Positions 37,574 through 40,889 of a stretch of DNA of 64,000 nucleotides are shown piece by piece. A program made the position numbers and the translations under genes. The notes under the pieces are model-generated. The model had not been told where the DNA came from and did no database searches. It saw nothing but the letters and a program-made list of their open reading frames with translations. How positions within the stretch are numbered: position 1 is the first letter of the stretch; each line of letters starts with the position of its first letter. The DNA comes from Tenericutes bacterium MZ-XQ (lineage in GTDB: Bacteria > Bacillota_I > Bacilli_A > Acholeplasmatales > Acholeplasmataceae): assembly GCA_002838205.1 (NCBI GenBank), contig CP017950.1:1122858-1186857 (forward strand), written 5' to 3'.

Positions 37574-38920
37574 TTACCATATGATTGTGGCTAATTTTTT
37601 CAAATTGTACATACTTAAAATCATGAAGCTTCGATCCTCATTTTTCCTAAGTCCTCTAAGAAACGTAAATCCCAGGCAATGATTCATTTTTGAAATTCCA
37701 AAAACCCTTTCAACTGACGTTTTTCTTTTCGGATATACCTCTTTTCCAATCTCAGATAGTCGAATCCGTTTAGCTTCTTCACTATCTGCTTCATAAAAAT
37801 GCCTTAATATCACTTTTGTTTTTTGATTTGTACACTGAGTCTTAAAAGGACAATTTAGACAATCTTTCGTTTTTGTTTTATATGCTTTATAGCCTTGTTT
37901 ATTAGTACCTCTATAAGTTAATACTTTTTCATTTGGACAAATATAATAATCATGAAGTTCAATATACTTGAATCTATGTTTTGTAAAATATAATGCATTG
38001 GATGATCCACCTGCACCTTTTCTTCCTTTAGGTCTTTTATAAGGAATTACAGGCTTAACACCTCGTTTAAATAATTCATGAAGTAATACTGGATGATCAT
38101 ACCCCGAATCCATGACTGCCATGTCAACTTCTTCATGGGCATCTATATAATTAATGACTGTTTCAAGTCCAGTTTGACTATCGTGTAAGTTACCCGGAAA
38201 TACTTGAGATGCTAATACCCATCCGTTTTCATCACTGATCACTTGGTTACTATAGGCTAACTGTCTTTCTTTCTCACCTTTATGAAACATACCGCAGTCC
38301 GGATCCGTTAGACTCTTTGTTACTTTTTTAGCTTCATTAAAGTCTATTTCTTCTTTGCCTTCTTCACTTCTAACTTCATTGATTTCTTTTTGTAGAGCTT
38401 CTACATACCTGTTCGTTGAATCATTGATTAAGATATCATTGACTTGTCTTTTATTTGCATATGCCTTAATATGTGTTGCATCGACAAATATATTATCCAT
38501 TTTGACAAGCTTTAATTTCATAGCTTGATATAAAATCGTATTAAATATCTCCTCAAAAACAGAAGTGCCTTCAAATCGACGTACATAGTTTTTTCCAAAG
38601 GTTGAAAAATGTGGGACGAAATCATTAAAATCATATCCTAAAAACCACCGATATGCTGCATTAACTTCGATTTCTTCAATTGTTCTTCTCATGGATCTAA
38701 TGTTGAATAAATATTGAATAAAGACAATCTTAAATAAAATGACTGGGTCTATAGAAGGTCTTCCCATATCATCCGCATATAAATTTTCTACAATATCATA
38801 AATAAAACTGAAGTCAATCGCTTTATCTATTTTTCTAACTAGATGATTGTTTGGAACGAGTTTATCCATTTCCATGATGAAGATGTTTTCGCGATTGTTT
38901 ATTTGATGTTTTGTTAACAT
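37574..38920 (-). CDS. IS1182 family transposase (DDE, IS4-like fold)
   Basis: Intact transposase of 448 aa. The N-terminal domain has DDMGRPSIDPVILFKIVFIQYL and IEVNAAYRWFLGYDFND. The catalytic core shows a first Asp in NIFVDATHIKAYANK (about residue 148), a second in VDMAVMDSGYDHPVLL (about 270) and the Glu in RKTSVERVFGISKMNHCLG (about 400). A cysteine-rich segment CLNCPFKTQC (about 363) is common in this family. No frameshift is present, so the element may be active. The start follows GGTTGGTGA. Confidence 0.92.
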   Translation of the reverse strand: MLTKHQINNRENIFIMEMDKLVPNNHLVRKIDKAIDFSFIYDIVENLYADDMGRPSIDPVILFKIVFIQYLFNIRSMRRTIEEIEVNAAYRWFLGYDFNDFVPHFSTFGKNYVRRFEGTSVFEEIFNTILYQAMKLKLVKMDNIFVDATHIKAYANKRQVNDILINDSTNRYVEALQKEINEVRSEEGKEEIDFNEAKKVTKSLTDPDCGMFHKGEKERQLAYSNQVISDENGWVLASQVFPGNLHDSQTGLETVINYIDAHEEVDMAVMDSGYDHPVLLHELFKRGVKPVIPYKRPKGRKGAGGSSNALYFTKHRFKYIELHDYYICPNEKVLTYRGTNKQGYKAYKTKTKDCLNCPFKTQCTNQKTKVILRHFYEADSEEAKRIRLSEIGKEVYPKRKTSVERVFGISKMNHCLGFTFLRGLRKNEDRSFMILSMYNLKKLATIIW

Positions 38921-39159: not shown

Positions 39160-39180
39160 AACACTTTTTTAAATAAGTGT
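39160..39180. repeat. 21-bp direct repeat (right copy); ssb terminator hairpin
   Basis: Identical to 37437-37457. It directly follows the ssb stop and forms ACACTT/AAGTGT, but the U-run that would complete the ssb terminator has been left 1.7 kb away beyond the IS. Confidence 0.9.
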
Positions 39181-39539
39181 TATTTTTCTTCTAAATCTTT
39201 TATATCTGGATCATTTTTTTGACTTGATGATAAGAACGTAATTCTTTCAGCAATCACTTCGAGCATATTTAGTCGTTTTTCAGGTTCAATTTCGTATTTA
39301 TAGGTTTGTACTCTTGCTTTAACAGCAATCATCGTTCCTTTTACACAATATGATTCTATTGCTGTGGCTAAACCCTCCCATACAGATACTTTAATAAAAT
39401 CTGTATCATAATTGCCTTCCATGTTTTTAAAACCTCTTTGAACAGCAAGAATGATATCACTGACTTTTCTGCCATCTTCTAAAATCTTAGTTTCAGGATC
39501 CTTTGCAAGTCTACCAACAAGTATTAATTGATTTAACAT
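39180..39539 (-). CDS. ssb: Single-stranded DNA-binding protein, short form
   Basis: OB-fold single-stranded DNA-binding protein of 119 aa: MLNQLILVGRLAKDPETK at the start, then DFIKVSVWEGLATAIESYCVKGTMIAVKARVQT. It is short and ends DPDIKDLEEK, without the acidic DDDIPF-type tail that recruits partner proteins. The replicative ssb normally sits between rpsF and rpsR; this one stands alone between two insertion sequences, so it is probably a secondary SsbB-like copy. AAAGGAG precedes the start; TATACT at about 39561 may be its -10. Confidence 0.88.
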   Translation of the reverse strand: MLNQLILVGRLAKDPETKILEDGRKVSDIILAVQRGFKNMEGNYDTDFIKVSVWEGLATAIESYCVKGTMIAVKARVQTYKYEIEPEKRLNMLEVIAERITFLSSSQKNDPDIKDLEEK

Positions 39540-39682: not shown

Positions 39683-39691
39683 AAAAAAAAG
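39683..39691. repeat. Left 9-bp direct repeat flanking the second IS
   Basis: AAAAAAAAG, matching 40865-40873 on the other side; probable target duplication (8 or 9 bp). The 143 bp between ssb and this repeat hold no gene, only the ssb upstream region. Confidence 0.65.
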
Positions 39692-39714
39692 CTGACGTTT
39701 GGTGCATAGTGTTG

Positions 39715-40641
39715 TTATTTTTCATAATAATCACTACTCACTGATTCTAGTACATCCGTAATTCCAGGATCACTTTGGAAATTTCTATAAGTGATTCTCT
39801 TTTTTATCTTTTTAACTCTTCTGTATAAATCATCAATCATAGAATTCCTGCTTTCAATAATTTGACGACTGTTAATGTGTTTTGATTTAGGCGTATGATT
39901 ATATCTATAAACGAAAAAATTCATGTAATGTTGTAGATTTTTTAGACGATATCCTGCGTGCTTGAATAAGTATCTTTTTATATTGCTATGTAATGAATCT
40001 ACTAAAAGTGTATTGTATTTTCCATCACATTCTCTGCGTGCATCATAATTAGGGACACTAAATTGACGCATAAATTGTTTCTGTATTACCGATCCATCAT
40101 GGATAAATTTAGTCACTTCTCCAATGTTTTTTGTACATAAATCAATAAACTTTTTTGGTGAAGCGTTTCCTCTTGATGACACTTTAGCTATAGTTATTCC
40201 TTCTAAACTTATCAAAGTAATCACGCAAAGATGATTAAATGAAATCCCTCTAATCCCCTTACCATCACGTCTAACCAGTTTATATCTTTTATCACTTATT
40301 CTGACGAAAGTCTCATCTACTAGAATAGTTCCATTCAAAAATACCTCATCTTGGTAATCTCTTAAAGATTCGAAGATAAGGTATCGATAATATAAAGCTG
40401 TCTTTATATCAATGCTTAGGTTTCTTGCGATTACTTCTAAAGTTACATCATCAATCATAAATCCAATAAATCTTTTGAAGATGTAATCACTATTATTTAA
40501 GTAACTTGTTGTAGATTCGTCTTGTATAAAAGTTCCCATACAAGATTTACACTTAAATCTCGGTTTACCATTCTTAGTACGACCATGCTTGATTGGAGAA
40601 TTAACTGTACCACAAAGTGAACATATTTTGAACTTGGGCAT
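39715..40641 (-). CDS. Transposase with N-terminal zinc ribbon, IS1595/ISXO2-like
   Basis: Transposase of 308 aa, intact. An N-terminal zinc ribbon CSLCG...CKSCMGTF (residues 7-37) precedes a helix-turn-helix region. The catalytic core has Asp in GTILVDETFVRIS (about residue 108), Asp in KFIHDGSVIQ (about 178) and the VDSLHSNIKRYLFKHAGYRL / LQHYMNFFVYRYN block at about 214-250, as in IS1595-type DDE(N) enzymes. The ribosome site AAGGAG (4 nt before ATG) is part of an unusual set of interlocked repeats in the leader. Confidence 0.82.
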   Translation of the reverse strand: MPKFKICSLCGTVNSPIKHGRTKNGKPRFKCKSCMGTFIQDESTTSYLNNSDYIFKRFIGFMIDDVTLEVIARNLSIDIKTALYYRYLIFESLRDYQDEVFLNGTILVDETFVRISDKRYKLVRRDGKGIRGISFNHLCVITLISLEGITIAKVSSRGNASPKKFIDLCTKNIGEVTKFIHDGSVIQKQFMRQFSVPNYDARRECDGKYNTLLVDSLHSNIKRYLFKHAGYRLKNLQHYMNFFVYRYNHTPKSKHINSRQIIESRNSMIDDLYRRVKKIKKRITYRNFQSDPGITDVLESVSSDYYEK

Positions 40642-40646
40642 AATAC

Positions 40647-40749
40647 TCCTTAGACCACAAAAGCGAGTATTTCACCCAACTAAGGAAAGTCGCCAAACAA
40701 ACCAGGGTAAAATACTCGCTTTTGCGGTTCCTTAGTTTATTTGTTTGGC
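40647..40749 (-). repeat. Interlocked inverted repeats in the transposase leader (possible RNA switch)
   Basis: Three complementary pairs cross one another: A 40654-40672 with A' 40710-40728 (19 bp, one G.U), B 40678-40687 with B' 40728-40737 (10 bp), C 40692-40701 with C' 40740-40749 (10 bp). The order along the DNA is A B C A' B' C'. A further copy of the B' sequence (40647-40653) contains the Shine-Dalgarno, so B can pair either with the ribosome site or with B'. Confidence 0.8.
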
Positions 40750-40864
40750 ACGTTCATTATAACATTTTAGTTTTGGAAAATTCCACTCAAAATAAAAAGT
40801 TTAATATTCGCCCTTGTTAATGATTTATCAGAAAAATTTAACAACACTATGCACCAAACGTCAG

Positions 40865-40889
40865 AAAAAAAAGGCTATGATTTAGCCTT
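40865..40889 (-). terminator. Terminator of the M16 peptidase gene, abutting the second IS
   Basis: AAAGGCT, AAATCAT, AGCCTTT followed by eight T in total on the minus strand. The gene's TAG stop (40875-40877) is inside the hairpin. The T-run is also the right copy of the IS target duplication (40865-40873). Confidence 0.85.

Follow-up and report, generated by a model that had tools for sequence, protein, structure and literature searches.

The question raised by this locus is what a transposase leader does with three pairs of complementary arms, each of which crosses the other two just ahead of the ribosome site. The window (the whole stretch of DNA analysed, 64 000 nucleotides) belongs to a genome of 2.16 Mb in a single contig, closest among named bacteria to members of the Mycoplasmatota/Acholeplasmatales, in which the IS1595-family element of Table 1 is present in five copies with essentially identical transposases. 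The window transposase has the IS1595 domain, with a PF12762 score barely over the cut-off (27.3 versus 27 bits); the score is well over the cut-off in the transposases of two other loci (L064 and L008). All five copies (the window copy and L002-L005) are bordered on either side by (A/T)AAAAAAAG (39683-39691 and 40865-40873 in the window), which, when looked at as a target duplication, measures 8 or 9 bp depending on the reading. The element seems to target poly-A/T tracts, which are perhaps terminators. The right-hand flank of the window copy forms the A/T tract of a hairpin (AAAAAGGCTA/TAGCCTTTTT) that is likely to be the upstream gene's terminator. Its neighbours are an unrelated DDE transposase (DUF772/DDE_Tnp_1; 37574-38920) and an SSB gene (39180-39539).

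Table 1. Coordinates in the window of the insertion sequence and of the elements of its leader
Feature	Position	Strand	Basis
IS1595-family insertion sequence, 1173 bp	39692..40864	(-)	ends compared across the genome's five copies
IS terminal inverted repeats CTGACGTTTGGTGCATAGTGTTGTTA	ends of 39692..40864		five-copy comparison
Transposase, 308 aa, ISXO2-like/IS1595 DDE domain	39715..40641	(-)	Pfam PF12762
Extended -10 element TGTTATAAT	40756..40764	(-)	sequence; TANNNT spacing across leaders
C' arm GCCAAACAAA	40740..40749	(-)	repeat search; first base is the predicted +1 (40749)
B' arm AACTAAGGAA, copy of the SD region	40728..40737	(-)	repeat search; subgroup feature
A' arm, 24 nt	40705..40728	(-)	repeat search and pairing in relatives
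C arm TTTGTTTGGC, 5' part of segment I	40692..40701	(-)	repeat search and pairing in relatives
Nearly invariant core GTTTGGCGAC of segment I	40689..40698	(-)	two leader alignments; altered-core control scans
B arm TTCCTTAGTT, 3' part of segment I, antisense to the SD region	40678..40687	(-)	repeat search; I/T complementarity
A arm, 24 nt	40654..40677	(-)	repeat search and pairing in relatives
SD copy CTAAGGA (SD AAGGAG at 40651-40646); target T includes the start codon	40647..40653	(-)	sequence

In the RNA, the order is TGTTATAAT, 6 nt, C', B', A', C (which continues into GAC), B, A, CTAAGGA and the ATG (40641). The three mutually crossing pairs of the original prediction were all recovered by the repeat search and were not produced by shuffling. 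B'/B and C'/C are paired at 10 of 10 positions, as had been claimed; the A'/A pair is real as well, but the 19 bp assigned to it was an underestimate, since 24 pairs can be drawn (92% Watson-Crick, 2 G-U), with 15 as the longest exact run. Chance had been thought an unlikely origin, and indeed, among 2000 dinucleotide-shuffled versions of the leader, exact stems reached 11 at most (15, 10 and 10 were observed), and 2 versions had two crossing exact stems of at least 8; the folding z-scores of the leader were -4.9. The predicted seven-base copy of B' at the ribosome site is also present and could pair with B. The segment formed by GUUUGGCGAC and B, which we call I, thus has two possible partners: C' at the 5' end, or T, the ribosome site.

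The predicted transcription start is the G of C', 6 nt after TGTTATAAT, and C' lies at +1 in nearly all leaders: of 51 leaders, 40 have a TANNNT motif 6 nt upstream of C', and 48 have one at 4-8 nt. A promoter consensus scan of the window leader did not report TGTTATAAT as a -10, and no good -35 hexamer was evident. The start region of the window copy (40631-40648) resembles A' (40700-40717; AATACTC repeat), so A could additionally pair with the SD-ATG region there, a resemblance limited to the nearest relatives. In L063 and L264, the coding start repeats C' (GCCAAACCAA and GCCAAACCAAAT), so C can pair with the start-codon region. Terminal-repeat fold-back inhibition was considered and rejected: folding does pair the start codon in the window copy, but such pairing is not evident by eye in relatives.

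The helices look mutually exclusive, judging from their order and spacing. Linkers are about 0 nt for B'/A' and B/A, and in some relatives as little as 1-2 nt separates C' from A'; with the order C'-A'-I-A-T, such linkers mean that A'/A excludes both C'/C and I/T. They are too short for a static triple pseudoknot, which was discarded. In 25 of 25 leaders tested, A'/A is the lowest-energy fold of the complete leader; the RNA truncated at C folds C'/C, and blocking of the A arms lets C'/C, I/T or both form (only I/T in L331).

Conservation of the arms was analysed in genomes of the same order, where 13 of 160 gave a leader match, with a DNA identity of 75-90% in most cases (L037, among these 13, is short and chance-like, and L036 in genome G158 is a remnant devoid of C' and promoter). 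The transposases of the same family are 48-81% identical, and among relatives the leader is better kept than the transposase. The -10, the arms and the start codon align, whereas the region upstream of the promoter does not, which leaves the earlier suggestion that the leader senses read-through unsupported. For A'/A, C'/C and B/SD together, 95.7% of cells are paired in 12 distinct aligned leaders, versus 40-46% when the arms are slid by 1-3 columns; in the same 12 rows, 14 double-changed cells were observed versus 4.2 in shuffles (0 of 500 shuffles). Compensatory changes, proposed originally as the check to be made in related copies, are therefore found for these three pairings. They are not found for B'/B outside the closest copies: no B'/B covariation was seen in the wider leader alignment, and two bases co-change between the window element and its nearest relative (AACTAAGG/CCTTAGTT to AATCAAGG/CCTTGATT). 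B/B' is thus a feature of a subgroup, kept in the closest copies only, and it was dropped as a general element of the leader.

A wider search, using a covariance model (whose E-values are rough) and the pattern TATAAT-N-GCCAAA-N-TTTGGC, led to at least 51 distinct leaders. IS1595-like elements across Bacilli are concerned, and leaders with entirely different arms occur in other families of this class, the A'/A sequences being unrelated between families. The same plan with unrelated arms precedes the transposase of a second IS1595-like element of the host genome (G000; seven copies, L008-L014), which is 24% identical to that of the window, and it is also present at L313, L331 and L335. Leader-bearing elements sit on several deep branches of the transposase tree; the leader is absent from six canonical IS1595 plasmid elements (ISSag10, ISCaje5 and others). 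Among named phages and plasmids searched by blastn, the insertion-sequence form was found in a Tenericutes MO-XQ plasmid only, and the viral form described below in none. No Rfam 15 model, C4 and isrK included, matched the leader at insertion-sequence or viral loci, either at the gathering threshold or in E-value mode, and nothing on point was found in open-access papers on the core sequence or on IS1595 leaders.

The core pattern gave at least 184 matches in IMG/VR. The crossing stem is bimodal among the viral matches listed, with at least 32 at 18-24 bp, whereas stems in the shuffled control reach at most 14 bp; viral leaders were collected via the core pattern, and viral counts are lower bounds. 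The downstream ORFs on these GC-rich contigs match primase/helicase, C5 methylase, SNF2 helicase/methylase or AntA/AntB anti-repressor proteins, or nothing (L164 and L295 are IS-like exceptions among the leaders). In the viral group there is an extra CCCG/CGGG hairpin, whose loop pairs with the 5' segment and whose changes are compensated, for example CCCG/CGGG to CCCA/TGGG between L256 and L254. In L258, L254, L257 and L267, a short upstream ORF directly follows GTCGCCAA and runs into the beginning of the primase gene, an overlap that suggests translational coupling.

Selection on the RNA itself was assessed from mismatches. Under a score in which G-U and A-C weigh the same, and with counts that are not independent because the leaders are related, G-U exceeded A-C 82:20 over both helices (62:11 in insertion sequences, 20:9 in viral leaders). 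For A'/A alone, the ratios were 54:8 and 14:6, respectively, and 49 versus 14 in distinct sequence contexts. This large excess of G-U indicates that the sense RNA is under selection. Complementarity of I to the 45 nt following A was significant (P ≤ 0.05) in 16 of 27 insertion-sequence leaders and in at least 14 of the 24 viral leaders listed. Mean I/T scores were 10.1 for insertion sequences (6.4 shuffled, 6.5 for a downstream control) and 9.8 for viral leaders (6.5 and 7.4); in L331, I/T reaches 14 bp and extends to the ATG. The antisense segment is thus complementary to an upstream site, C', and to a downstream one, T, the latter in most leaders but not all. The viral leaders lacking I/T are mostly T-rich just 3' of the A stem (L272, L273, L271, L259, L239 and L260); the T count after the called stem is high in most of them, not in L273 and L287, where the called stem enters the U-tract. 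This stretch looks like a terminator platform. As a general explanation, a terminator was rejected, because a U-tract after A is missing from many insertion-sequence leaders.

We consider it fairly probable that the leader serves mobile elements as a regulatory RNA that acts in cis, by co-transcriptional switching, and it looks like a widespread, hitherto undescribed means of timing protein production by mobile DNA. The recurrence of one plan with unrelated A'/A helices, both on viral contigs and among further IS1595-like elements, is part of the evidence for this reading. Transcription would start at C', and I is complementary both to C' and to T (the SD, often with bases of the start codon). 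C'/C is predicted, from the energy model, to be the first helix formed on the nascent RNA; while it persists, I/T could form alongside it and mask the ribosome site (OFF). After synthesis of A, the far stronger A'/A, of about 18-25 bp, would oust C'/C, hold I in a hairpin loop, prevent both C'/C and I/T, and free the ribosome site (ON). In the second form, on viral contigs, A'/A followed by a U-tract would act as a terminator and C'/C as the antiterminator. The architecture is well supported by the arms, their exclusivity (order and linkers), the covariation, the wobble asymmetry, the spread and the two kinds of expression platform. We infer the direction of the switch and its signal, and a limit or delay that it would put on transposase and phage early proteins. 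By the model energies, A'/A is already preferred when A has just been made and T does not yet exist, so the OFF state may be brief; moreover, the same helix would release translation in the first form but end transcription in the second, so a single logic is not proven. Of the pseudoknotted switch originally envisaged, the control over the Shine-Dalgarno is retained (compensatory changes, B antisense to the SD, G-U excess), but not the simultaneous presence of all helices, which the linkers seem to preclude.

The strongest competitor, although unlikely, is control in trans: immunity or copy-number control of the P4 CI or P1 C4 type, where the A'/A loop would present I, and a processed or terminated RNA would pair with C' and T of other copies or of a second phage. 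By analogy, C'-[A' I A]-T is an arrangement similar to P4 seqA-CI-seqC (PMC4825925). Primase/helicase and anti-repressor, gene types that P4 and P1 have too, are among those downstream, and A'/A is free to drift, unlike the constrained I, C' and T. However, there is no Rfam match to C4 or isrK, and pairing in cis accounts for the arms without any separate RNA.

Somewhat less likely still is a riboswitch-like or protein-bound leader, in which the core GCCAAAC/GUUUGGCGAC (with the CCCG/CGGG hairpin in viral leaders) would be the binding site and A'/A the switching helix. The core GCCAAAC/GTTTGGCGA is nearly fixed across leaders: among the matches listed, stems of at least 16 were found for 27 of 170 with the true core, 1 of 102 with a compensated U-A (L407), 0 of 111 with C-A and 0 of 110 with U-G. 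More variation would be allowed if pairing were all that mattered, so the core sequence itself is probably read as well, and a factor may read it. Two expression platforms would also fit such a leader, yet the downstream genes share no metabolic theme, and the core is not absolutely required, since it is compensated in L407 and at a genome locus (L335, GCTAAAT/ATTTAGC) and L331 lacks C', with no GCCAAAC at its 5' end.

A DNA element, with C' and C as an operator pair or transposase sites, is very improbable. The terminal repeat (GTTTGGTG) is similar to the core (GTTTGGCG) in the window element, but the core stays constant while terminal repeats vary, and does not track them; the wobble asymmetry and the presence of the leader ahead of viral non-transposase genes speak against both this reading and the DNA structure for transposition first suggested. 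That the leader is a mere 5'-terminal stability hairpin, with the remainder incidental, fits C' being at +1 in nearly all leaders, which would leave the 5' end unexposed, but is hardly credible given that A'/A and I/T are conserved too.

A broader version of the switch reading is that insertion sequences and phages share a new class of leader RNA, in which an internal antisense segment picks the 5' end or the ribosome site beneath a freely drifting flanking hairpin, a conserved factor reads the fixed core, and the RNA possibly acts in trans as well, as element-specific immunity; we advance it tentatively, as somewhat short of probable. If true, a control device common to transposases and viral early genes has been missed by annotation and by Rfam. 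The leader would be a natural example of crossing, mutually exclusive helices with clear covariation, which makes co-transcriptional refolding testable, and, if it acts in trans, RNA immunity of the P4/C4 kind would extend to insertion sequences.

In P4 CI and P1/P7 C4 (to which IsrK of Gifsy-1 is related), as here, one leader carries an antisense segment between two complementary targets. The C4 RNA of P1/P7 has this layout and controls an anti-repressor. In the P4 CI RNA, the antisense segment with its flanking targets serves the control of phage replication (PMC4825925). The present leader differs in that a long hairpin carries the segment in its loop, the first target coincides with +1 and insertion sequences are included; it matches neither the C4 nor the isrK model of Rfam and has no known processed RNA. 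Among transposase leaders, those of IS10 (RNA-OUT, fold-back inhibition) and IS200 lower transposase through RNA structure at the ribosome site. IS10 fold-back acts on read-through RNA only, whereas all arms are here downstream of the internal promoter. We know of no crossing alternative helices in the leaders of ISPpu9, IS10 or IS200. In the 5'-UTR of the ISPpu9 transposase (Asr9/Ssr9), intramolecular control by an RNA structure at the ribosome site holds transposase low (PMC8450116). These three elements belong to other families than the window element. In hok mRNA, metastable early hairpins are later replaced by the final fold. The same is described for aapA1-type toxin mRNA, whose early co-transcriptional hairpins give way to the final fold (PMC6733600). 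Hairpins formed during transcription and then refolded are common to these mRNAs and to our model; the genes (toxin-antitoxin), partners and sequences differ. With attenuators and riboswitches the leader shares terminator/antiterminator exclusivity and modular expression platforms; it differs from them in having no known ligand and in the placement of its switching helix, which lies within the conserved helix and also crosses it.
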